This document shows positions 598 through 55,475 of a stretch of 64,000 nt of DNA, piece after piece. Position 1 is the first letter of the stretch. Each line of letters begins with the position of its first letter. The stretch spans positions 1-64,000 of the IMG/VR virus record IMGVR_UViG_3300020473_000023, one strand, 5' to 3'. Under the pieces are notes generated by a model. The model searched no databases and was not told the DNA's origin. It saw only the letters and a program-made list of their open reading frames with translations. The translations under genes and the position numbers were made by a program. Source of the DNA: a virus.

Positions 598-1413
598 TCA
601 ACCACCGTGATGGGATTCTCCTGAGATCATATCCTCTAGATGATCGAAGATTGCCGCCCGTGTTGACTTGGGGCACGTTGATCCACTCATCCGCATAAGA
701 CTTTCAATGGCCATGTCAATTAGATCTGGATTTGCCTGAAGAAACATTCGAACCTTGTCATAGCTTTCGGAGTGAGGAGCATCTCTCGTCTCATCTTCTC
801 CACCTAGCCCCATCATTCCTGCCTGGCGGCCTAGTCCCATTGCCTCTTCAGGTGAAAGGTCAGAAAGGTCGCCTGTATAGTCAAAAACCTCTCTCTCATC
901 GTGACCGCTAGCATACCCTGCACCAAAAGCTTCTTCCGGAGACATCATATCTTCTTCTGGAGGTTCAACCATCGACATTATCTGATCCTTCATGTCACAT
1001 CTATTGCATGTTCCGCATCCACAGCCGTGTCCTTCTCTAATAAGCTTAGCTGCTTCTTGAATCACCATTGTTCTTAAATTCATATTTCTTTCCTCATTAT
1101 TTTCTAAATCAGCTTCGCAGGCAGCATAGCCAACTCCTGCTGCCTCACCAGGCGTTAGAGAGTCGGGATCGTGAGACCATGATATTGAATCATGTGGGCC
1201 TGCGTTGCTCTCTTGTGTTTCAAAGTATGCGTGATCAAGGTTGTCCTCAATGTTATCCCCTCCAGCCCAGGCATCTTCTCTTGGTACAACTTCCGCAGGA
1301 TGAAATGCATCTGTTACATCCCTAGGTTCCACTTCAATTGGTAGCGGGGAGATTAAAACAAGCCCAATCTCTTCCTGAATAATTCTTTTCAATCTTTCTC
1401 TAGTCACAGTCAT
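598..1413 (-). CDS. Acidic helix-tagged protein with PEEAxGxGY repeats and a Cys cluster
   Basis: A 271-residue acidic protein opening with TRERLKRIIQEEIGLVL, a variant of the shared N-terminal helix. Inside is REDAWAGGDN, which recurs in the protein at 20733-21398. Three diverged copies of a motif like SPEEAFGAGY follow, at about residues 86, 158 and 186. The same motif occurs in the SET-domain protein at 18766-19188. Around residue 130 a CGCGTCNRC cluster could bind zinc or a metal. No catalytic domain is recognised. A modular virion or delivered protein is possible but is inference. The ATG at 1413 follows a weak ribosome site and an AT-rich upstream element. Confidence 0.7.
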   Translation of the reverse strand: MTVTRERLKRIIQEEIGLVLISPLPIEVEPRDVTDAFHPAEVVPREDAWAGGDNIEDNLDHAYFETQESNAGPHDSISWSHDPDSLTPGEAAGVGYAACEADLENNEERNMNLRTMVIQEAAKLIREGHGCGCGTCNRCDMKDQIMSMVEPPEEDMMSPEEAFGAGYASGHDEREVFDYTGDLSDLSPEEAMGLGRQAGMMGLGGEDETRDAPHSESYDKVRMFLQANPDLIDMAIESLMRMSGSTCPKSTRAAIFDHLEDMISGESHHGG

Positions 1414-15600: not shown

Positions 15601-16875
15601 TCACCTCTCCATCTTAATAACCACATCCCCTTTTGGCGGGTCAAAGGCTAGAGATCTTCCGGGAACAATTACCCAGGCCCGTCTTAGACGGCTTGGGCCT
15701 GGGCTAGAGCACTCACCGTCTGTCAAGACAATGTATCCATCAAACTTTCCAGCATTTTCTCGTGCGTGCCTGGCGACGGCATTAAAGCTAGTCCCACCGT
15801 ACCTGTGTCGAACAGGTGGGATATTTTGCCCCCTTCTCCATTCAATAGAGTTCTTCTCATCAACTTCAGTATCAAAGGGAAAGAGTGTAAAGTTGATCTT
15901 CTTTCCAAGGTTGTTAAGCTCTGCAAAGAGAAGTTCAATGCTATCAGATCCAACAGAACCAGATTGATCCATGTAGACGGCAATGTTTGCACTATGACCC
16001 CGTCGGATACCAGAGTGAATGTAGGGATACTTTCTATTAATCCTCTTCATAGTTCTACTCTTGTTCATCCGCTGGCTCCTTCCACAGAAGCTCTTAAGCA
16101 AAGTAGACCAGGGAATTGTATTGGAGACCATCTTTCTAAGATCCTCTCGAACAGATCCGGGAACAGATCCCCACTCTCCGCTACCATCACATCGCTTGAC
16201 TGCCTCAGAGACAGCCTGCCGGATCTTGCCCTCTACGATCTGACGATCTTCGTCGGACATCTCATCCCACTCGCCGTGGTCATCAATCATTACCTCAATG
16301 CCATCTCCTTGGCCCTGAATGGCTTCAGAGATCTCTTGGTCCTCCTGAAGCTTTCCAAAGTACCACTCGCTTGCCATCCCCTTGGGAAGTGACTCAATCA
16401 GGTCAGAGACCTTCTTCCACTTTTCAAGCAGGGCAGGATCTTCAACCTTGCTAAGATCAAGTGCCTTTCCTGGCATAAGACCACCCTCAGGAAGCTCCTT
16501 CTCCCTGATGAGGCCGTTGATTGCAAGGTCAGTCCCCCAGTTCCAGAGAATATGTGGGTCTTTCTTTCTGGACGTTACGTGCTTGTAAATCCAGTGATAG
16601 CACTCATGCTTCATAAGCCCTCTAACTTGAATGGGCTTTAAGCTCGCAAGGAACTTCGGGTTCCAGAAGAGTGTGGGATCCTGGTCAACAACTCCGATCC
16701 CAGCGGTTGAAATATCAGCCTTTCTCTTATTGAACTTACGAAGAACATGGCTAAAGAATGGCTCGTGAAGCATTAGATTGATGAGGTGGGGATCCAGTTC
16801 AAATGATGCTGCTTCCTCATCGGAAACCTCGTCAACTGTGACAGGAACATCGGTTTCAGTAGTCTTACCTTTCAT
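15601..16875 (-). CDS. DUF2201-type VWA-like / metallopeptidase-like protein
   Basis: A 424-residue protein. The first half fits the putative metallopeptidase domain of the DUF2201 family, with KHECYHWIYKH carrying an HExxH-like HECYH near residue 110 and WNWGTDLAIN after it. The second half is a VWA-like domain with a MIDAS-type YMDQSGSVG near residue 318 and VLTDGECSS near 392. In bacteria such proteins pair with MoxR-type AAA+ ATPases, and exactly such an ATPase is the next gene upstream (16939-18012). The pair is thought to act as a chaperone or metal-insertion machine. Its target in this phage is unknown. It has its own promoter at 16892-16921. Confidence 0.8.
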   Translation of the reverse strand: MKGKTTETDVPVTVDEVSDEEAASFELDPHLINLMLHEPFFSHVLRKFNKRKADISTAGIGVVDQDPTLFWNPKFLASLKPIQVRGLMKHECYHWIYKHVTSRKKDPHILWNWGTDLAINGLIREKELPEGGLMPGKALDLSKVEDPALLEKWKKVSDLIESLPKGMASEWYFGKLQEDQEISEAIQGQGDGIEVMIDDHGEWDEMSDEDRQIVEGKIRQAVSEAVKRCDGSGEWGSVPGSVREDLRKMVSNTIPWSTLLKSFCGRSQRMNKSRTMKRINRKYPYIHSGIRRGHSANIAVYMDQSGSVGSDSIELLFAELNNLGKKINFTLFPFDTEVDEKNSIEWRRGQNIPPVRHRYGGTSFNAVARHARENAGKFDGYIVLTDGECSSPGPSRLRRAWVIVPGRSLAFDPPKGDVVIKMER

Positions 16876-16891
16876 ATTTCCTCCTACCCCT

Positions 16892-16921
16892 ATTATAACA
16901 CAATTGGGGGTTGCTTACATG
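16892..16921 (-). promoter_or_regulatory. Phage promoter, CATGTAA / 17 bp / TATAAT, inside an inverted repeat
   Basis: Minus-strand CATGTAA, a 17-base spacer and a perfect TATAAT, 17 bases before the VWA gene. The six-base -35 core is exactly the loop of the 10-bp inverted repeat at 16905-16930. Confidence 0.75.
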
Positions 16922-16930
16922 CAACCCCCA
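16905..16930. repeat. Perfect 10-bp inverted repeat enclosing the -35 box
   Basis: TGGGGGTTGC at 16905-16914 pairs with GCAACCCCCA at 16921-16930 around the loop TTACAT. It lies between the MoxR and VWA genes. As RNA it would form a strong hairpin after the MoxR stop codon but has no U-run. As DNA it is a candidate operator over the VWA promoter. Confidence 0.8.
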
Positions 16931-16938
16931 GTATTTAA

Positions 16939-18012
16939 CTATTGAAGATTTCGAGCTACTGTAACTGCTTCTAGAACAGCCTGACCCAAGAACTTGTGAA
17001 GACGAGTGATGTTATTAACCTCACCAGAATCCATCACGTTGTTCCAGAGAGAAACAAGCATCTCACCCGGAAGAGTCTTTGCGAATACAGAAATCCTCTT
17101 GCACTGCTCTGCTGTCCACTCATTATTCTTACAGTGCTCACTGATCTTGTCAATGATGGAATTAACCTTATCATTGCTCAGGTCACTGATCTTCTCAGAG
17201 AACTCTTCATAGCGATCAATGACGTCCTCTGCAGAGATTTGAAGATCGTAGTTCTTGACAAAATCAACAAAGGTGATTGCTGCCTCAGCTCCTACGAAAC
17301 CAAGTGACATTGCATAGAATCCAGAGGGAGTATTCCTTCCGCAGATGGAAGAGGGAGTCATCCCAGCAGACTTTAAAGAAGTATCAATCCGCTCCCAGGA
17401 GCGGGGAGATGGGTAAACCTTTCCAGGCTCAATTTGCCCGACATGTCGAAGGTGAGCGGGATGGTGGCTGATAAAGTCCACAACAACCTCGTCAATCCCA
17501 GCTGCCTTGGCCCACTCAATCCAGTCCTTATCAGTTGGCTCGAGGTCAACAACCCAGAATCGATCCAGCAATGCAGGATCCATCTCATTGACCTGATAGT
17601 CAGCGGATGCGTTAACTGCGCAGAAGATACGAGTTTCTGGGTGAAGCTTATGACCATTCAGCTCACGGTCTAGAACGAGCTGGAAAGCACACTGCATCAC
17701 TTCAGGGGTTGCCCGATTAACCTCATCAAGGAAGAGTGCAACAGGTTCCCGACAAGCTCGAAGCAGCCAGTCAACCGGTGCAAATCGAGTGACACCGTCA
17801 ACAAGCTCCGGGAGTCCGATGATATCTCCCTCAGTCATCTGTGCGAGACGTCGGTCAATAAGGTCAATCCCGGTGGAGCCGTCTTCCAGATCGATTGCTG
17901 CTGCAACCTGTCGGAAAATCTGAGACTTACCAATTCCGTGGGGACCTCTCACGAGGATTGAAACGTCAGAAGGTAGCGAGGAAGCTACGTTAACAAAAGT
18001 CTTGATGTCCAT
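16939..18012 (-). CDS. MoxR-type AAA+ ATPase
   Basis: A 357-residue AAA+ protein with Walker A GPHGIGKSQ near residue 24, Walker B VALFLDEVNRA near 91, sensor 1 in FCAVNAS near 130, and ALLDRFWVVDL with the arginine-finger region near 146. The layout is the AAA_5/MoxR type. It is the partner of the DUF2201/VWA gene downstream. Together they resemble the RavA-ViaA or MoxR-VWA systems, in which the ATPase remodels or activates metalloproteins or complexes. The C-terminal 120 residues are helical. It is transcribed from the promoter at 18042-18071. Confidence 0.85.
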   Translation of the reverse strand: MDIKTFVNVASSLPSDVSILVRGPHGIGKSQIFRQVAAAIDLEDGSTGIDLIDRRLAQMTEGDIIGLPELVDGVTRFAPVDWLLRACREPVALFLDEVNRATPEVMQCAFQLVLDRELNGHKLHPETRIFCAVNASADYQVNEMDPALLDRFWVVDLEPTDKDWIEWAKAAGIDEVVVDFISHHPAHLRHVGQIEPGKVYPSPRSWERIDTSLKSAGMTPSSICGRNTPSGFYAMSLGFVGAEAAITFVDFVKNYDLQISAEDVIDRYEEFSEKISDLSNDKVNSIIDKISEHCKNNEWTAEQCKRISVFAKTLPGEMLVSLWNNVMDSGEVNNITRLHKFLGQAVLEAVTVARNLQ

Positions 18013-18765: not shown

Positions 18766-19188
18766 TTAAGTGCACCAACTTTCTTCAGGTTGTTCAAGAT
18801 CAGGTTGTTCTCTATAGTCAACTGTAATCTCTGTGCCGACAGGAAGGTCCCTGAGTGTATGCAATCTTCTAACGTTTCCGTCCATCACATTTGCACAATT
18901 CGGTTCCTCAGAGTGATTGTGGTATCTTCCGAGCTCGGTGACATCCCACCCACTCTCCGGCCTTCTGACGTGGCAGACACCAATCTCCTCTCCCTGTCTA
19001 AAATCTCTATCTGTAAATGCACCCATTCCCTGGATATCAGACTGTTGTATCACAAAATCTTTTCCAGTATTGTAGCCGAGACCGTAAGCCTCCTCGGGCC
19101 CCATGTCATCCAGATCACTGGGAGCAAGATGCATCTCAAGCTCTTCCCTAATGATTCTTCTTAGATCGGACCCTTTAATACGCATCAA
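18766..19188 (-). CDS. Helix-tagged SET-domain protein (putative protein methyltransferase)
   Basis: A 140-residue protein. Residues 3-20 are the shared tag (RIKGSDLRRIIREELEMHL). Residues 29-41 hold the PEEAYGLGY motif seen in the protein at 598-1413. From residue 45 a compact SET domain follows: SDIQGMGAFTDRDFRQGEEIG, the NHSEEPN motif at 91-97 and the final GTEITVDY at 118-125. In the family the NHS and DY elements bind S-adenosylmethionine and form the active site that methylates lysines. The post-SET region is short (ending ESWCT). The substrate is unknown. Its gene starts overlapped with the double-tagged protein upstream. Confidence 0.8.
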   Translation of the reverse strand: MMRIKGSDLRRIIREELEMHLAPSDLDDMGPEEAYGLGYNTGKDFVIQQSDIQGMGAFTDRDFRQGEEIGVCHVRRPESGWDVTELGRYHNHSEEPNCANVMDGNVRRLHTLRDLPVGTEITVDYREQPDLEQPEESWCT

Positions 19189-20249
19189 ACTCTCATTCGA
19201 GGAGGTAGAACTTCCATCTCAGATGCATAGTCTTCTGGTTGAACTCCAGCCCTCCAAGCATCGATGGGCATTCCATGCAACGCACTATTTCCGATCTGAT
19301 ACAGATTGCTATCATCTCCCGGGGTTGCTGTGGGCAAGCCTTTCGCTACAAGGACCTGGTTGGCCCAATCTAGAAATCTTGCCTGGACCCTACCCTGCAT
19401 CGCCCGCGCCTCGAAATCATCAAACATAGCCTGTTCAGATTCAAGGTCTGATGCCTCGCAGAGAAGTGTACCTGCCATCTTGTTCCAGCGACCCAGATCT
19501 ATACGGGATTCAGATAACTGGCTCAAATCCACATGTCCAGGAGGTAAGCCTCGAAGCTTTTCATCCAGGTCCATGTAACCTGTCGTACCCCCGGGCGGTC
19601 CGAGACCTTGTGCTTCTAGTGCAACCATCGAGAGCATGCTAGCCATCTGTTCTGGATCGTGAGTGTCACGTTCGAAATCGACGAGCAGTTTATTGTATGC
19701 TTTCTCAAAGTGGCCATAGTTATCAGGTGTGGCGAGATCTGACCTATATGCTTTAAGCTTATTCCAGGCTGCTCTCTGTCTCGGTCGCCAGTGGGCGGGA
19801 GGCTTGCTGGGTAAGATGTTCGCACTTGGATCCCCTCCATGTTGGGCATACGGGTCTCCATGGTATACTTCAGAAAGACTTGAAAACTCTTCCTTAATCA
19901 TTCTCTTTAGGTCTGCTTTATTTATCTTCATCTCTCTCATTCCTACCATATTTTGTGGGACTGTGAAGTCTCCGCTGTCAACCTTAGCTCTTATCTCATC
20001 CAGTGCGCTGTCAACATATGATTCAAATGTCGGCTTATCAACATTCATAGTCTGATACTGTTGAGTTGTCTCCCACTCTGTAGTTAGCCCCTTCCAGTGG
20101 TTGATCTCCCCCATTGCAGATCTGACGATGGCATTTCTCATGAACGGCCCAGTGTCCTCAAGAGACATCTGAGTCCTGGGCGCTGGACCTGACTGAGCCT
20201 GAAATTGCTCTCTAATGATCTTCCTAAGCTGGCTGATCGTGATTTTCAT
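19185..20249 (-). CDS. Double helix-tagged protein, unknown function
   Basis: About 354 residues from the ATG at 20249, which overlaps the upstream stop as TAATG. It carries two copies of the shared helix: MKITISQLRKIIREQFQAQ at the start and MKINKADLKRMIKEEF near residue 108. This looks like two tagged modules fused in one frame. The rest is polar and helical (WRPRQRAAWNKLKAYRSDL, LDWANQVLVAKGLP) with no catalytic motif. Confidence 0.65.
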   Translation of the reverse strand: MKITISQLRKIIREQFQAQSGPAPRTQMSLEDTGPFMRNAIVRSAMGEINHWKGLTTEWETTQQYQTMNVDKPTFESYVDSALDEIRAKVDSGDFTVPQNMVGMREMKINKADLKRMIKEEFSSLSEVYHGDPYAQHGGDPSANILPSKPPAHWRPRQRAAWNKLKAYRSDLATPDNYGHFEKAYNKLLVDFERDTHDPEQMASMLSMVALEAQGLGPPGGTTGYMDLDEKLRGLPPGHVDLSQLSESRIDLGRWNKMAGTLLCEASDLESEQAMFDDFEARAMQGRVQARFLDWANQVLVAKGLPTATPGDDSNLYQIGNSALHGMPIDAWRAGVQPEDYASEMEVLPPRMRV

Positions 20250-20479
20250 TATTTGCATCCGCTGGGAAGGTGAGACCTAAGTGTCTCTTTATATTTGCTT
20301 AGCGGAGGCTGTGTCCAGTCTAGGTGCGGACAGTACTCCTCATAATCCTTCTGATCCTGAAGATATAACTCCAGCGCTCGGGCATCACGCTCAAGGTCAT
20401 TCAGATCACCCATCAGCTTCTCAGCCGAAGGAATGAAGAGCATCACACTCGATATGATTGCTAGAGAGGGGAGGTTCAT
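20249..20479 (-). CDS. Small protein with N-terminal hydrophobic segment
   Basis: A 76-residue protein with a short hydrophobic start (LPSLAIISSVMLFIPSAEK), possibly a signal sequence or anchor. A charged helix (LNDLERDARALELYLQDQKDY) and two cysteines follow. With the coiled-coil membrane protein next to it, it could form an envelope pair such as a spanin-like unit, but no lipobox is seen, so this is speculation. Confidence 0.5.
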   Translation of the reverse strand: MNLPSLAIISSVMLFIPSAEKLMGDLNDLERDARALELYLQDQKDYEEYCPHLDWTQPPLSKYKETLRSHLPSGCK

Positions 20480-26130: not shown

Positions 26131-26653
26131 CGAGGATCTCTCTACCTATTAAATATGCAATCTGTCTTCCAAAATCTACATCTGATGGGAAGTGAACCCC
26201 CCTGTCAATTCTTGATTGAGCAATCATCTCAGCAAGACTTAGGAAGTCTTCTGCGTGTTGAGGAAACTTTCTACCTAAGATCAAAGCGTGAACAAATGCC
26301 TGAATGGTATGACCGCTGGGATATGACGGGCTCTGTGCAGAGTCGAGATCATCCCCTCGCCATGGAATCCCAAGCCGCTCTGCTGTAGAAGTAGGCCTTT
26401 CTCTACCATACAGCTCCTTCATAGACATAGCGATGGGCCCTAGGGCGTTGTGGATTCTATCGTGAAAGTCAGAATCGTATGGCAGACCCTTGCCCTTAAG
26501 ATACGTCTCAAATATTTCCCTCATATTCTCATCACATATTTTCTGAAGGGCTTGTGGGACTTTAGGGTTTTTGTGTTGTCTAATGACCTGCGCTAGATCT
26601 TCTATCTCTTCATGAGATCCTGGTGCTGGAGGTGGAATGCTTGGAATCTTCAT
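26123..26653 (-). CDS. PAP2-family (class A acid phosphatase-like) phosphatase
   Basis: 176 residues from ATG at 26653 (TAATG coupling with the upstream gene). All three PAP2 motifs are intact: KELYGRERP (Kx6RP), YPSGH (PSGH) and SRIDRGVHFPSD (SRx5Hx3D). No signal peptide or membrane helices are seen, unlike lipid phosphatases and typical periplasmic class A enzymes, so it is soluble in the cytoplasm or virion. It would remove phosphate from small molecules or lipids through a phospho-histidine intermediate. Its neighbours carry the helix tag but it starts MKIPSIPPPAPGS, without a helix. Confidence 0.85.
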   Translation of the reverse strand: MKIPSIPPPAPGSHEEIEDLAQVIRQHKNPKVPQALQKICDENMREIFETYLKGKGLPYDSDFHDRIHNALGPIAMSMKELYGRERPTSTAERLGIPWRGDDLDSAQSPSYPSGHTIQAFVHALILGRKFPQHAEDFLSLAEMIAQSRIDRGVHFPSDVDFGRQIAYLIGREILDG

Positions 26654-27420
26654 TAATCCTCCCTCATCTCTGCCGGCCAGTCTTGCTGTGGCCATCTTGT
26701 CATTAGATAATACTGATAGATTTCACGAATTCTTGCCATAACTGGGCCCATCTCTTCCTCTGTATATCCCTTGTGAAGCGCAGTGGCATAAATGTTTTGT
26801 AATTCCCAGTCTATCACATCAGCAGCCTCTACTCCCTCCATCTTTGCCTGCAAGACCCAGTCTGAGACATGTGCTGGAGTCTCCGCCTTATCTACAAAGT
26901 ATGCCTCAATGCTTTCAGGAGAAGCCCAGATAGAATCTTCATCTTTAATCTTTCTCTGGGTTGCCATAAGATCTTCTGTGGGCTGACCGGAGTGTTCTAG
27001 CTCGTGACGAATAGTTCCAACAATCTTGGACTCAAACCAGTCTACATCTTTATCAGTGTAGGAAGTAGGCATGAATAGGTTAAGAATAAGATCAGAGTTT
27101 CTCCTCTCTTCTGGCGATGCATTTAGGGAATACTCATAAGCAGCAGATGCGTTAAATTCTTGACTACCAATAGGAGGCTTCATTTTTATAATTACGTCTC
27201 TAAGCCACGTGACGTCGTCTGGGGGTGTGTAGTCAAGTCTAAATTCTAGCGGGAAGCTTCTGCCAGGTTTAGAAAAAAACGCCTTTATCTCTTCATCTTT
27301 AAGCGCAATTGTAGCTTCTCTACCTATTCTTCGAGCAGCTCTCTCTAGTTTTCGACCTGTTAGAGATTTTTCAATAAGAATCTCTCTCACATATTCACGA
27401 AGAATCTTCTCGCTTGACAT
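26653..27420 (-). CDS. Helix-tagged zinc-metallopeptidase-like protein
   Basis: 255 residues from the ATG at 27420, preceded by GAGGCG. The tag is SSEKILREYVREILIEKS. Later comes VGTIRHELEHSGQ near residue 160, an HExxH zinc motif whose His-Glu-Leu-Glu-His fits a gluzincin or metzincin-like helix. A third ligand (possibly Glu or His downstream) cannot be assigned with confidence. The target could be a capsid, cell-wall or host protein. Confidence 0.6.
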   Translation of the reverse strand: MSSEKILREYVREILIEKSLTGRKLERAARRIGREATIALKDEEIKAFFSKPGRSFPLEFRLDYTPPDDVTWLRDVIIKMKPPIGSQEFNASAAYEYSLNASPEERRNSDLILNLFMPTSYTDKDVDWFESKIVGTIRHELEHSGQPTEDLMATQRKIKDEDSIWASPESIEAYFVDKAETPAHVSDWVLQAKMEGVEAADVIDWELQNIYATALHKGYTEEEMGPVMARIREIYQYYLMTRWPQQDWPAEMRED

Positions 27421-27757
27421 TTCGACTGCGCCTCTTTGTGACAACCACATTATAATTATCTTGCTGTCGATGAGATTTTCTTCTATTTCTTTTCTTGTAA
27501 GGCCCTCGGACCTCTTTAATCACATTGCTGTGAAAGACAAAGCACTCAGCCTCCCCAGGCTTGTCAGTCTTTGGGTCCCACGGAACACAAGCTTTATTAA
27601 GGGCAACGAGGTCCTGATGTCTTATAATGACGGCAAAGAAGCCATACGGCTCTTTCGGATCAGACTTTATCGCCTTCACATGAATCTTCGGTCCTGCAGG
27701 CGTCTTCACCTCGTAGACCTTCCCGATTCTTATCTTTCTCTCTTTCCCACTCGTCAA
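27395..27757 (-). CDS. Unknown basic protein
   Basis: A 120-residue protein with a TTG start. IRIGKVYEVKTPAGPKIHVKAI suggests a small beta barrel, and the end is strongly basic (YKKRNRRKSHRQQ, VVTKRRSRNVKRE), suggesting nucleic-acid binding. Its first 98 bases overlap the upstream gene in another frame, so the true start may be further in. Confidence 0.45.
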   Translation of the reverse strand: MTSGKERKIRIGKVYEVKTPAGPKIHVKAIKSDPKEPYGFFAVIIRHQDLVALNKACVPWDPKTDKPGEAECFVFHSNVIKEVRGPYKKRNRRKSHRQQDNYNVVVTKRRSRNVKREDSS

Positions 27758-33974: not shown

Positions 33975-34826
33975 TCACAGGTTTTGTAGAATCCAATCTT
34001 CTGCAGTTGCTGACAGCGGACCCTGTATGAATCTATTTATCTTCTGAATATCCTCAGAAGTAACTGCCGTCCCTCTCGGCTTTGTATTATCAATCTCGAC
34101 AAACCGATCCTCACCAAACGCTGCCATGTACTCTGGAATTAGTGATGGGGTGGGCGGAGCTTCAGGCTTGTCTGGATTGATTCCCCCAAACAGTCTCCAG
34201 CATGTTCTTTCAACAGCAATATCGGCAAGCCCTCTTCCGGGTGGGTCAGCAAGGCCCCTCTCTCTATTCCTTCTGACCGACTCTTCTCTTGGAACATTGA
34301 CTGCAATCATCATTGTTTCATATCCCAGCTTTTCTAAAATAGCCTTCTGCTCGAGTGTCTTGTTTAGAGACGCAGCTGTTCCATCGATTATAAGGCCGAG
34401 CCTTCCGTCTACGTAGAATTCTTGAGAGCTTTTCTTTGACAAGCTTCTTCCGGGCTTCAAGCCAAATTCTTCGGGGTCGAGACCCTGCCTCTCAGGTGTG
34501 ACTCCATGCCATCCGGTAATGTTCTTTCTAGCCCTTGCTCCGAGCTTACCGGCTGCTGACTGCTGATCACTGGTAAAGTCCTGCTGATATCCCATCAGGC
34601 CGCTTGCTGTCAAATATCTATCAAGGGCATCATCTTGATTAACAATCTTCATACTGTTGGCTGCTAGAGTTGGAACATTGTTCAATACAAAGCCTATGAC
34701 AGATCCCTTTCCAGACCCTGGACATCCCGCCATGAAGATTGCCTTAAATATCCCTTCATCTCTTGGGCCCTCTCTCAGGAGCTCTTCTCTGATAATTCTT
34801 CTAAGCTGCCTGCGTGAGATCTTCAT
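33975..34826 (-). CDS. Helix-tagged P-loop kinase (zeta-toxin/AAA_33-like)
   Basis: A 283-residue protein beginning MKISRRQLRRIIREELLREG, the most canonical copy of the tag. FKAIFMAGCPGSGKGSVIGF follows, with Walker A near residue 33. KIVNQDDALDRYL matches the substrate-Asp region of zeta-toxin-like kinases. LGLIIDGTAAS is the Walker B strand, and VPREESVRRNRERGL forms the arginine-rich lid. The family phosphorylates small molecules or UDP-sugars. The substrate here is not known. An AATATTTATAG element is just upstream. Confidence 0.75.
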   Translation of the reverse strand: MKISRRQLRRIIREELLREGPRDEGIFKAIFMAGCPGSGKGSVIGFVLNNVPTLAANSMKIVNQDDALDRYLTASGLMGYQQDFTSDQQSAAGKLGARARKNITGWHGVTPERQGLDPEEFGLKPGRSLSKKSSQEFYVDGRLGLIIDGTAASLNKTLEQKAILEKLGYETMMIAVNVPREESVRRNRERGLADPPGRGLADIAVERTCWRLFGGINPDKPEAPPTPSLIPEYMAAFGEDRFVEIDNTKPRGTAVTSEDIQKINRFIQGPLSATAEDWILQNL

Positions 34827-40116: not shown

Positions 40117-41727
40117 CTACAACTGATGAAACTCAGCTTGGTCCTCGTCTACCATCGTGCATCCGACAGTAAGCATCATAGATGCAGCTGAGGAAGCATT
40201 CTCCAGTGCAGTTCTAACAACCTTTAAAGGATCTATAATTCCCATCTCCATCATATCACCATACTCATCTGAAAATGCGTTGTAGCCAAGATTCTTTTTC
40301 ATTCCAGTAACCCTGTCTAGAACAACATCCGGTGTTCCTCCAGAATTAATTACGATCTGTCTCAAGGGTTCAGAGCATGCTCTTCTTACAATCTGCCTTC
40401 CAGCCTCGAATCCAGACATAGCATCTGCATCATTATTAGAAAGTATGCTCGCTGCCCTAACAAGGGCAACTCCTCCGCCAGGTAAGATCCCTTCTTCTAT
40501 TGCTGCCTGAGTAGCGTGAAGCGCATCATCAACCCTGTCTTTTCTCTCCCGTAATTCAACCTCTGTCGCACCACCAACCTTAAGAACAGCAACACCACCA
40601 GAGAGCTTCGAAAGCCTATCTTTTAAAATCAACTCCTCAGCCTCTTCAAGAGCGGGGGATTTAAGCTGCTCCCGTATTGAAGTGACTCTTTCCTTAACAG
40701 CTGATTGATCACCTGAACATCCGATAAAGACGGTATTGTTTTTTCCACATATTATCTTTTTACACGTTCCAAGGTTTTCAATGCTGGCTTCTTTAAGAGA
40801 GGTCCCTGTCGTATCCGAGACAATATCACAATCTAAAAGAACGGCGAGGTCTTGAAGCATCGCTATTCTGCTTTCTCCAAATCCAGGAGACTTAATTGCA
40901 CAAGACTCAAGTGTCCCTTTAAGGTGATTAACAACAAGACCCTGCATTGCATCTCCGTCGACATCATCTGCAATTACAAACAAGGGATGACCTGATTCGA
41001 GAACGACTTCAAGAATGTGCATAATATCTTTAAGATTTGTAATTCTAGAATTAGAAAGTAAAACATAGGGATTCTTAATCTCAGATATCATCTTGTCTTG
41101 ATTGTTGACAAAGTATGGAGACAGGTACCCTCTTTCAATATTCATTCCCTCTACAGTTGTTAAAGTAGTATTAAATCCTTTTGCCTCCTCAACTGTGATC
41201 ACACCATCTCTTCCAACAGAGTTAATTGCCTCAACTAAAAGAGATCCAATTTCTGTCTCCCCGTTGGCTGAAATAGTACCAACATGTTCTATTTCTTTAT
41301 CTGTTGTAACTTCAATAGAAAGCTCTCTTAGCTTGTCTATTACATCTGAGACTGCACTTTCGATACCCTTCTTAATTTCTGATGATTGAAATCCAGCAGC
41401 AAGCATCCGAACCCCCTCAGAAAATATTGATTGAGATAGAACTGTTGCTGTTGTGGTGCCGTCACCTGCAACTTCAGCCGTTCTAGAGGCTGCCTCTTTA
41501 ATAATTTGAACACCTAGATTGTCAAACTTATCTTTTAAATTTACAGCCCTGGCAACTGTAACCCCATCTTTTGTCAGGATTGGCGAGCCAGATTGTTGCT
41601 CAATGACTACGTTTTGACCTCTTGGTCCCATAGTTATTTTAACTGCATTTGCCAAGATATTTACTCCGGTTAGGAGCCTCTCTCTTGCAGAAACATCAAA
41701 CTTTATAATCTTATTTGTCTGAGACAT
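40117..41727 (-). CDS. groEL: GroEL-type chaperonin (Hsp60)
   Basis: A 536-residue group I chaperonin, near the usual 540-550. It has MGPRGQNVVIEQQ near residue 31, the ATP-site GDGTTTATVL near 85, apical-domain VEGMNIERGYLSPYF near 190, and the intermediate-domain GGVAVLKVGGATEVE and GILPGGGVAL near 405. The C-terminus ends VDEDQAEFHQL, without the GGM tail of GroEL. It would form a folding chamber for phage proteins. No GroES-like gene is visible next to it, so it may use host GroES or act alone, as reported for some phage single-ring chaperonins. Confidence 0.95.
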   Translation of the reverse strand: MSQTNKIIKFDVSARERLLTGVNILANAVKITMGPRGQNVVIEQQSGSPILTKDGVTVARAVNLKDKFDNLGVQIIKEAASRTAEVAGDGTTTATVLSQSIFSEGVRMLAAGFQSSEIKKGIESAVSDVIDKLRELSIEVTTDKEIEHVGTISANGETEIGSLLVEAINSVGRDGVITVEEAKGFNTTLTTVEGMNIERGYLSPYFVNNQDKMISEIKNPYVLLSNSRITNLKDIMHILEVVLESGHPLFVIADDVDGDAMQGLVVNHLKGTLESCAIKSPGFGESRIAMLQDLAVLLDCDIVSDTTGTSLKEASIENLGTCKKIICGKNNTVFIGCSGDQSAVKERVTSIREQLKSPALEEAEELILKDRLSKLSGGVAVLKVGGATEVELRERKDRVDDALHATQAAIEEGILPGGGVALVRAASILSNNDADAMSGFEAGRQIVRRACSEPLRQIVINSGGTPDVVLDRVTGMKKNLGYNAFSDEYGDMMEMGIIDPLKVVRTALENASSAASMMLTVGCTMVDEDQAEFHQL

Positions 41728-42673: not shown

Positions 42674-43282
42674 CTATTTAAACCCGATTCCAAGTCCCGC
42701 AACAGCAACCTGTCCAGGCTTGCTGTGTTGAGGCTTATTATCACCGTACATCCAGTTTCTTGTAGTGTATAGGCCGCCGTCACCCATTTCTTCAACTATG
42801 CTACCAATCTCTTTTCTAATGGCATCTCTAAGTTGATTTTCTTCCTGCAACCTCTTGCTTGACAAGTTGTTTCGCTTAGCTCGCTCTTTCTTCATTCTAG
42901 AAATCTCTCTTCGAAGCATAGACTCATTAATCTCAACCATCTCTTCCATCGGGCCGCCAAGCTCTTCATCGGTGATGGCGTCATAGTCCTGCTCCTCAAC
43001 TGGGGCGAGCGAATCGAGGGCTTCCGCGTCTTCATCACTCATCGTCATCTCATCACCGCCTCCTGGAGGATCATCAAGTTCTCCCATGGCGAATGGGTTG
43101 TTATCTTCATCGCCGCCCTCTGGAGGCTCGTCAAGCTCATTCAGGTCTCCTGAATACCAATCAACTCCCTCATCATGGCCCTCATCATGTCGGCTTTGAT
43201 TTCCTGACTCATTTAGTGATCTTCTGTCTGAAGAAGTAGAAATTCCAGCAAGCTTTGCTAGTCTATTGGCATTGAAACGCAT
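42674..43282 (-). CDS. Acidic phage protein with internal NESMLRREI motif
   Basis: A 202-residue protein. It starts RFNANRLAKLAGISTS, then an acidic Gly/Asp/Pro-rich middle (ELDDPPGGGDE type), then EINESMLRREISRMKKERA, which is an internal copy of the ESLLR-type tag. It ends with a Gly/Val segment. An AAATATTTAATTC element precedes the AGGAG site. A virion or scaffold role is inference. Confidence 0.6.
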   Translation of the reverse strand: MRFNANRLAKLAGISTSSDRRSLNESGNQSRHDEGHDEGVDWYSGDLNELDEPPEGGDEDNNPFAMGELDDPPGGGDEMTMSDEDAEALDSLAPVEEQDYDAITDEELGGPMEEMVEINESMLRREISRMKKERAKRNNLSSKRLQEENQLRDAIRKEIGSIVEEMGDGGLYTTRNWMYGDNKPQHSKPGQVAVAGLGIGFK

Positions 43283-44951: not shown

Positions 44952-45207
44952 CAAACAACTCCCTTCTCTCAGCAAGTGTTCTTAGGACAAGCCTAACACC
45001 TGTTAGATCATGATAATAATTAATCAGCTCCTGCTCAAAATTATTAAGCCACTGCTCCTTTGTCTTAGGGTCTCTGGTGGAAAAATTCTTTCTAAGCCCT
45101 GAGGGTATTCCAAGCATGATCTGCTTCTTAATCATAACCCAGTCATCCATGTCGCCCGCGTAAGATGACACAAATTCAACTTGCTCCCTGATCCTGTCAG
45201 GAATCAT
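44938..45207 (-). CDS. Unknown 89-residue protein
   Basis: A helical protein (IREQVEFVSSYAGDMDDWVM, EQWLNNFEQELINYYHDLTG). No family recognised. It lies between two tagged genes and overlaps both. Confidence 0.5.
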   Translation of the reverse strand: MIPDRIREQVEFVSSYAGDMDDWVMIKKQIMLGIPSGLRKNFSTRDPKTKEQWLNNFEQELINYYHDLTGVRLVLRTLAERRELFGELK

Positions 45208-46679
45208 CTATTCATTCCCAGCAAGAGCATCTCTCTGACGAACTCTCTTAGGAGCGATTCCCGAATCTTATCATACATGACAAATCCACTTTCTTGCCCT
45301 TGGGGCGACATCTGAACATCTCCAATTGTAATATCTTCCTTGTTAACAGCCCTAGCTGGATCAAGCATAACAGCAGCTTTTGCCCTATCTGCTATCACGA
45401 TTTGAAATCTAAGGCCCATTATCGGCTTGACGGGAGATGATTCCGAGTCTCCAGCGGGAGGTGAAAGATATTTCTTAGGCCTTCCTGCAGAACCGGTTAT
45501 AATTACTGTAGGTTTCTCATTTGGAGAGAGGTCATCAATAGAAGAGTAGACAGATCCAGGTATAGTGAGTGTTTTTGTGGATGGGTCCCATTCTCCTACG
45601 GGCTCATCGGCGTAATAGTCTCCTTTAAGGACAAGGTCTGCTCTATTTTCTCCAGACCCAAAGACAGCATGCTCCATAAACTCAGGACCCAAATACTCAT
45701 CTGGAACTGTAAAGTTGGTTCTAATCTGTTGACCATCCTTTTCAACAACCATCTTAGAGCCCGCTTGATTTGGACCTGCTCCAACTATCTTTGCTATTCC
45801 CCCACCGTCAACCTCGACTCCAGAACCTTCCAGGGCCTGAAGGAGCGGGCTTAGCAGGGGAAAGGACATGTCCGCAGAGAGCCAGTGACCAGCATTTATC
45901 ATTTTCATGCTGACACCTATCTCACTCTCACCTCCGTTGTACACAATGTCGACATCACTCTTTGAGGTAACTCCGCCCTTCTTTTCTGTTCCGGCAGCCT
46001 TGGCGCTAATAACTCCCTTAAGTGACGTATTATTCTTGCCTTTCCGATCCAGAAAGACAACAGTTAAAGGATAATCTCGACCGAGATCCGACTCATACGG
46101 GGGAAGCCCTTGCACAGCAAGATTTATGTCATCAGTGACTCTTTCTTCGCTTATAATCCCTAGAGACTTCGAGCCTCCTGCCCCTTGGACCTTAAATGCA
46201 AGTTTTTGATGAGGTGTAATGTCATCTTTCCCTGTCTTTGTAAACTGGCCAAGAGATTTAACAAACTCAATTGGACCAAGGCCCTGTGGGCCTTGCATGA
46301 CCTGAACTTTTATTCCTTGATTTTTCACCATTTTCTGGAGAGCCTGAGCCCCTGACTCTCTCTGCTCCTGGTCTTTTCCAGAAATTAGTGAGAGGTTCTC
46401 AAGAAATGTAATTATCTCTCGATTGTGTGGATCATCTTTGAGAATTATACCTTGAATAAATTCTTCTGGATAAAGATCTCCGTCAATGGAAGCTTCTTTG
46501 CGAACGCTAATTGTAAAGTAGTCGCCTGTTCGGATCTTCTCCAGCATTATTAAAAATCTATCAGGCCTACCGGCACTGCTCTTTGGCTTTGATAGCTCTC
46601 CAGCAGTCAGCCCGACCCGATTGGCTTCTAGAAAAAGCTCTCTTATGTACTGTCTAAGAAGTGACTCAGAAATCATCAT
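45204..46679 (-). CDS. Protein tagged at both ends
   Basis: A 491-residue protein. It begins SESLLRQYIRELFLEANRVG and ends YDKIRESLLREFVREMLLLG, so both termini carry the ESLLR-type helix. The body is alpha/beta with glycine-rich turns (IISEERVTDDINLAVQGLPP, SKSDVDIVYNGGESEIGVSMK, the last recalling a DxD nucleotidyltransferase or nuclease strand). No enzyme can be named. The GTATAC repeats at about 46688-46707 form an inverted pair upstream. Confidence 0.6.
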   Translation of the reverse strand: MMISESLLRQYIRELFLEANRVGLTAGELSKPKSSAGRPDRFLIMLEKIRTGDYFTISVRKEASIDGDLYPEEFIQGIILKDDPHNREIITFLENLSLISGKDQEQRESGAQALQKMVKNQGIKVQVMQGPQGLGPIEFVKSLGQFTKTGKDDITPHQKLAFKVQGAGGSKSLGIISEERVTDDINLAVQGLPPYESDLGRDYPLTVVFLDRKGKNNTSLKGVISAKAAGTEKKGGVTSKSDVDIVYNGGESEIGVSMKMINAGHWLSADMSFPLLSPLLQALEGSGVEVDGGGIAKIVGAGPNQAGSKMVVEKDGQQIRTNFTVPDEYLGPEFMEHAVFGSGENRADLVLKGDYYADEPVGEWDPSTKTLTIPGSVYSSIDDLSPNEKPTVIITGSAGRPKKYLSPPAGDSESSPVKPIMGLRFQIVIADRAKAAVMLDPARAVNKEDITIGDVQMSPQGQESGFVMYDKIRESLLREFVREMLLLGMNR

Positions 46680-54866: not shown

Positions 54867-55475
54867 CTAGTCTCCGCCAGTAGCGGGCAAGCCTTCAGGG
54901 TCACCAATAGCACCGATTCCTGGCTCTCTCCCACCAGCAAGTGCAGAAGCAGGTTCTCTAATAGGGGCTATATTGAAATCAAAGTTTGTATCTAGAATAT
55001 TTTTAAATTCATCTATATAACCTTGGTCATAATTTTCGTCTAAGAAGTTAATAGCTCTATTTATTATAACAGTAGGGATATCTAGTCTAGCTCGGTATCC
55101 CAAGGCTAGTTGGGCAACTTTTTTAGTAAAAGAGTCAATATTCATTGCAGGACGCTTGGCAGGCTCTACAGGAGCAGATACATCGATATCTTCGCTTCCG
55201 ACGGGATCTTCAACTCCTGGGTCTTCCGGGGCTAGATTTTCATCTTGCTCAAATAGAAATGCTGATAGATTAAGATTGCTCAATGACTCAGTGACAAGAT
55301 CATCTGAGCTGACTATTGAACTAGCCTCGAAGTCAATCATGTGTGAGTCAATTTGATCGTCAACTGAATCCATAGACAGCCTGACTTTTGTCGAAGCATC
55401 TGCCATTGAAACAGGTTGATTTTCTTCATCCTGCTCTAGGATCATCTTCCTAAGATCATTAATTGAAATTTTCAT
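54867..55475 (-). CDS. Helix-tagged protein, unknown function
   Basis: A 202-residue protein starting MKISINDLRKMILEQDEEN, a clear tag. An acidic Asp/Glu/Pro-rich linker follows (residues about 75-100), then a folded segment (FTKKVAQLALGYRARLDIP, VIINRAINFLDENYDQGYI) and a Gly/Pro-rich end. It overlaps the SOD gene's stop by four bases. No enzyme motif. Confidence 0.6.
   Translation of the reverse strand: MKISINDLRKMILEQDEENQPVSMADASTKVRLSMDSVDDQIDSHMIDFEASSIVSSDDLVTESLSNLNLSAFLFEQDENLAPEDPGVEDPVGSEDIDVSAPVEPAKRPAMNIDSFTKKVAQLALGYRARLDIPTVIINRAINFLDENYDQGYIDEFKNILDTNFDFNIAPIREPASALAGGREPGIGAIGDPEGLPATGGD

Follow-up and report, generated by a model that had tools for sequence, protein, structure and literature searches.

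A helix-tagged SET-domain protein in a tailed-phage-like virus and its possible delivery with the virion

What might a small, free-standing SET-domain protein do in a phage, and why does its N terminus carry a short helical tag that recurs on other proteins of the same virus? The question is raised by a gene in the virus record IMGVR_UViG_3300020473_000023 (106,284 bases, IMG/VR), whose positions 1–64,000 form the window, the whole 64,000-nucleotide stretch analyzed here. The minus strand holds nearly all genes of the record, which include seven tRNAs, a chaperonin, DNA polymerase III alpha, and further phage-like genes. The 106-kb record is probably incomplete, or may be very divergent.

The SET protein and its locus

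The first-pass annotation set the boundary of the gene at 19188, a TTG start one codon before the ATG at 19185. Since this ATG overlaps the stop codon of an upstream 357-aa ORF (TGATG), the two genes are probably translationally coupled and their products co-translated. The features of the locus are:

18766..19185, minus strand: mini-SET protein of 139 aa, counted from the ATG
19126..19185, minus strand: N-terminal helix tag, residues 1–20 (MRIKGSDLRRIIREELEMHL), identified from pattern and shuffles, the model helix, and the tag family
19072..19098, minus strand: PEEAYGLGY motif, residues 30–38, in the low-confidence linker from tag to SET domain
18808..19059, minus strand: SET domain, residues 43–126, from Pfam, PHROG, pLDDT, and Foldseek
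19021..19029, minus strand: G53-M54-G55, the GxG motif of the predicted SAM site, from conservation in 31 relatives
18910..18918, minus strand: N90-H91-S92 signature, invariant in 31 relatives and aligned with the NHS of vSET
18814..18819, minus strand: DY, residues 123–124
18814..18816, minus strand: Y124, predicted catalytic tyrosine, invariant in 31 relatives and aligned with the SY of vSET
18787..18795, minus strand: E131-Q132-P133, which marks the nearest SET subfamily, invariant in the subfamily alignment and present in most members
19185..20258, minus strand: upstream protein of 357 aa, tagged at its N terminus and internally

Directly downstream of the SET gene, at 15601–18012 (minus strand), a MoxR-type AAA ATPase lies beside a DUF2201 metallopeptidase/VWA protein.

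The Pfam SET profile (PF00856) matches the 139-aa protein with 36.2 bits against a curated cut-off of 22.4 (E = 8.6e-9), and two PHROG profiles match it with E = 8.3e-10 and E = 1.1e-6, the latter being PHROG 28741, matched over profile positions 11–93 of 100. Among PDB sequences, vSET of chlorovirus PBCV-1 matches the protein best (3.9e-6), with many eukaryotic SET enzymes next. In an AlphaFold model, for which an alignment of 31 phage sequences served as input, the 10-residue blocks spanning residues 41–130 have pLDDT values of 86–98, and a lower-confidence helix at residues 5–19 is followed by a disordered linker before the SET domain. Foldseek also places vSET first among PDB structures (E = 2.9e-7, probability 1.0, TM 0.65 on vSET); against viral models the top match is a SET protein of 971 aa from an uncultured virus, and several SET proteins of uncultured Caudovirales rank high. 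The first-pass annotation had proposed a SET domain from NHS and DY elements. The Pfam match, the PDB sequence search, the model, and Foldseek bear out the domain, and the two elements are located at residues 90–92 and 123–124. We regard a SET lysine-methyltransferase fold as well supported by these predictions for the product of 18766–19185 and, taken alone, its assignment as a SET-type enzyme as highly probable.

The GxG, NHS…PN, and terminal catalytic Tyr motifs are all present. Nine residues (S49, G55, N90, H91, S92, P95, N96, E119, and Y124) are invariant over the 31 phage relatives and G53 is kept in >90% of them; it is these conserved residues that suggest catalytic competence. GxG and NHS are separated by a short segment; since it is equally short in other phage mini-SETs, its length is a feature of the family, not damage. 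The post-SET zinc-binding region is absent from the sequence of the protein.

Relatives of the SET protein

The first-pass annotation considered SET domains uncommon in phages. The phage mini-SET is indeed rare in cultured phages, where about 10 of 50,697 records contain a detectable relative (4–7 records per query), but it is common among environmental contigs in IMG/VR, at least 416 stretches of which are confirmed to encode one. As an IMG/VR search with the SET protein as a single sequence gave no matches, alignments were used as queries. The sole match among genome contigs, in a Maricaulis MAG (L089), was a chance DDMGPEEA in an unrelated ORF and was discarded. A literature search for SET domain with cyanophage gave no text match.

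Most phage mini-SETs are ~100 aa long, with YxPLPxxLTI at the N terminus, an RTPLGGFINHS signature, and no helix tag. Proteins of the PHROG 28741 type (Pelagibacter phage Kolga and cyanophages P-RSM6 and P-SSM7) have this length and both sequence features and the same short middle segment, at roughly 30–35% identity to the SET protein of the record; unlike the latter, they lack both the helix tag and EQP. The SET gene of cyanophage P-RSM6 adjoins baseplate genes, that of P-SSM7 lies beside nrdA/nrdB in a nucleotide-metabolism region, and the SET of cultured MW202744, annotated as PBCV-1-methyltransferase-like, is located in a capsid-terminase block.

The closest relatives, at ~40–48% identity for most, have in common with the SET protein a YR..P..EQP stretch after the catalytic tyrosine. 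They are mostly parts of larger phage proteins (568–3667 aa), including a ~690-aa DHH-SET protein and several proteins of 568–1843 aa with SET at the start; SET is usually one part of these proteins, whereas the SET of the record is free and tagged. In a 3667-aa phage protein (L016:5265-16268, plus strand), a crassvirus cargo domain is joined to DUF2272 and SET, and one large protein of the nearest subfamily matches lysozyme weakly, with a score short of the Pfam cut-off. Crassvirus cargo proteins travel in the virion (PMC10172136) and, by analogy, such cargo-like sister proteins support, without proving, a virion role for the nearest SET branch. The DHH-SET fusions in L217, L218, L219, L220, L223, and L227 begin with MKKIIKES, MRKLIKES, or MKRILKES, which resemble a shortened tag, and their neighbors start with MIKLIDILNES.

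The helix tag

The first-pass annotation had described the SET protein as tagged, and in this it was right: the helix tag, MRIKGSDLRRIIREEL, is repeated at N termini across the virus. A tight pattern, [LIF]R.[IVMYF][IV][RQ][ED] within the first 25 residues, occurs at 8 of 150 N termini, against a mean of 0.024 and a maximum of 1 when those residues were shuffled (1000 shuffles). A DNA pattern for MKI....LR.IIREE matched at least 120 stretches in IMG/VR, where roughly a hundred distinct small proteins carry the tag, with as many as four in a locus; a scrambled version of the pattern, equal in composition, had 0 matches in 2.9 million IMG/VR contigs. The short N-terminal tag is common to otherwise unrelated proteins, almost none of which, among 77 tagged proteins, are recognized by Pfam and PHROGs. 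In the orthologues of two relatives, the tags are kept and the protein bodies have diverged. The core sequence of the tag had no match in a literature text search. Further proteins with the tag or tag-like helices in the window are:

598..1413, minus strand: tagged 271-aa protein with three PxEAxGxGY-like copies
26653..27450, minus strand: tagged protein with an HExxH (HELEH) zincin-like motif; LIE-K after the tag
33975..34826, minus strand: tagged Zeta-toxin-like P-loop kinase; LRE-G after the tag
45204..46679, minus strand: 491-aa protein with a tag-like helix at each end, both kept in a relative with 55% identity overall
54867..55475, minus strand: tagged 202-aa protein, the tag conserved in relative L210

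Tag-like helices also occur twice inside another protein (L004:8361-10163) and are conserved in relatives. Judged from internal and both-end copies conserved in relatives, the tag element is not solely an N-terminal address. Loci L106, L123, L151, and L206 contain small tagged proteins together with chaperonins 43–44% related to the chaperonin at 40117–41727.

The PEEAYGLGY motif had been read as a second sign of delivery. It is present in the SET protein, and the tagged protein at 598–1413 contains its three diverged copies (GEAAGVGY, PEEAFGAGY, and PEEAMGLGR), but a delivery role found no support. Since PEEAYGLGY occurs in one other IMG/VR stretch only, its distribution indicates a local mini-repeat rather than a general tag, and we dropped it as a delivery motif.

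Could the tag be a capsid-targeting sequence? The internal proteins of T4 are loaded via N-terminal capsid-targeting sequences of 10–20 residues (PMC9026906, PMC5694885), and gp21 removes the targeting peptide by cutting after L/I-X-E (PMC9026906). A second [LI]-x-E, with its Glu at residues 18–25, is present in 52 of 93 non-redundant tagged proteins (shuffle mean 14.7, maximum 27 in 2000 shuffles) and the residue after it is often Ala, Gln, or Gly. In the SET protein, I12-R13-E14 fits the gp21 cleavage motif and is the sole L/I-x-E; it lies inside the tag motif, and the second site is lacking.

We searched 36 records: two relatives of the virus and 34 to which the tag pattern or its neighbors had led. 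The T4-type prohead protease (PF03420) was present in 20 of them, including 16 of the 17 tagged records of ≥110 kb, an association confounded by record size, as long contigs are often T4-type anyway; the Gp23 capsid was present in 17 of the 36. Untagged SET-bearing records of ≥75 kb encode the T4-type protease in 2 of 6 cases. As the scrambled pattern matched no contigs, it controls for the pattern only and supplied no size-matched contigs for the protease test. In 11 protease-bearing tagged phages, a small protein near gp21, taken as a head-core protein, starts with a tag-like peptide (for example, MKLTRAKLKDLIKECIVEVLAEG), which ends in LxEG or LxEA in 10 of the 11. By analogy with T4, the second L/I-x-E sites, the association with prohead protease, and the head-core peptides suggest that the tag is a T4-style capsid-targeting sequence.

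The S77 protease, Gp23 capsid, T4 portal, and Terminase_6C were not found in the record or its close relatives, and searches of the record for T4-type protease, capsid, portal, scaffold, core, and terminase gave nothing convincing, also with profiles made from tagged phages. The best match to a scaffold profile, 42674–43282, had E = 0.002 with filters off and was not accepted; the large ORFs of structural size have no usable Pfam or PHROG match. T4-type head machinery may be absent from the record, lie outside the fragment, or be unrecognizable. One further protein has matches to protease profiles:

G000:C1:84774-85376 (= L004:774-1376), outside the window, minus strand: ClpP-like protein with matches to "head maturation protease" PHROGs

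From these matches it is a possible candidate for the prohead protease of the phage. It adjoins replication genes, and we do not claim it as the protease of the tag.

Proposed virion delivery and its alternatives

How would the enzyme reach its substrates if the tag directs it to the capsid? The product of 18766–19185 would be an active, minimal, vSET-like protein lysine N-methyltransferase, whose first ~15–20 residues would be a removable, amphipathic helix with a targeting function like that of the T4 capsid-targeting sequence. This helix would dock the enzyme onto the prohead core, leading to its packaging with DNA. A prohead protease would then release the enzyme by cutting the tag after L/I-x-E (I12-R13-E14). 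Once in the host together with the phage DNA, the enzyme would methylate lysine residues of host proteins or of phage proteins that enter with it. Activity, packaging in the phage, tag cleavage, timing, and substrates are what we infer in this best explanation. The full reading, a vSET-like methyltransferase that is packaged by its tag, freed by proteolysis, injected, and acts on host proteins, has in our estimate an even chance of being correct, and packaging of the enzyme in the virion via its tag, argued by analogy, is slightly favored. More tentatively, one helical tag may load varied injected effectors in many uncultured phages, with SET modifying the host at infection in this case; a tag-loaded, injected SET might similarly, with about the same reservation, be the bacterial-virus counterpart of packaged vSET and T4 Alt.

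Delivery with the virion had been proposed in the first-pass annotation. The proposal is now better grounded, since in many phages the tag behaves as a T4-type targeting sequence, particles of PBCV-1 contain packaged vSET (PMC7019647), and the sister SETs are located in cargo-like proteins. Against packaging, neither the record nor its close relatives have recognizable T4-type head genes or protease, the SET tag lacks a second L/I-x-E site, and the protease association is confounded by record size (2 of 6 among the untagged SET-bearing records of ≥75 kb).

It is also possible, if distinctly less likely, that an active SET methyltransferase, once expressed, works inside the infected cell on targets such as proteins of host transcription or translation, and that the tag docks it to a phage assembly complex. 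Most ~100-aa phage mini-SETs are small, free, and untagged, and the P-SSM7 gene lies beside nrdA/nrdB; tag-like helices are N-terminal, internal, and C-terminal, as a docking motif would predict and a simple N-terminal address would not need. These observations count for an intracellular enzyme and against packaging, whereas the link between the tag and both S77 protease records and L/I-x-E sites, and the sister SETs within cargo-like giant proteins, argue the other way.

An improbable variant is that the packaged SET modifies phage head or core proteins during assembly, in a structural role, rather than the host. No phage substrate was identified, and the precedent of vSET is a host target (PMC7019647). 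The packaging evidence applies to this variant as it does to the host-acting reading, and the positions of the P-RSM6 SET beside baseplate genes and of the MW202744 SET in a capsid-terminase block are in its favor. That the protein is a catalytically dead SET fold serving as a binding module, as the very short GxG-NHS segment and the lack of the post-SET zinc-binding region could indicate, is very unlikely, since 31 divergent phage relatives keep GxG, NHS, PN, E119, and Y124 with little or no variation and vSET needs no post-SET zinc site for its activity.

The preferred reading, a packaged SET enzyme acting on the host, can be compared with known systems. Like the phage SET, vSET (A612L) of PBCV-1 is a minimal free-standing fold of similar size with an NHS...PN...EIT.xY layout, at ~21% identity in the fold alignment; unlike vSET, the phage SET belongs to a tailed-phage-like virus, where no histone substrate is expected, and has an N-terminal tag and an EQP C terminus. 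The internal proteins of T4 and Alt, a delivered enzyme (PMC5512222, PMC9026906), resemble the tagged proteins in having a short N-terminal L/I-x-E peptide on unrelated small proteins and enzymes. However, the T4 tag differs in sequence, T4 packages an ADP-ribosyltransferase rather than a SET, and gp21 was not found in the record. Polyvalent proteins (PMC5512222) resemble the proposed role of SET in that they carry host-modifying enzyme domains and are predicted to be injected with DNA, but they have at least two disparate domains, whereas the SET protein of the record has a single domain and some of its relatives several. A full-text literature search for "polyvalent proteins" with "SET domain" did not return PMC5512222, so SET seems not to be described among its polyvalent proteins.

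Should the tag prove to be a capsid-targeting sequence, injected proteins of many uncultured phages, nearly all of them otherwise without assigned function, could be listed by a simple sequence pattern. A packaged phage lysine methyltransferase, if true, would add, next to ADP-ribosylation, a new route by which a phage modifies the proteins of bacteria, and would open protein lysine methylation during phage infection to direct tests. The Zeta-toxin-like kinase at 33975–34826 and the HExxH protein at 26653–27450 are candidate co-delivered effectors.
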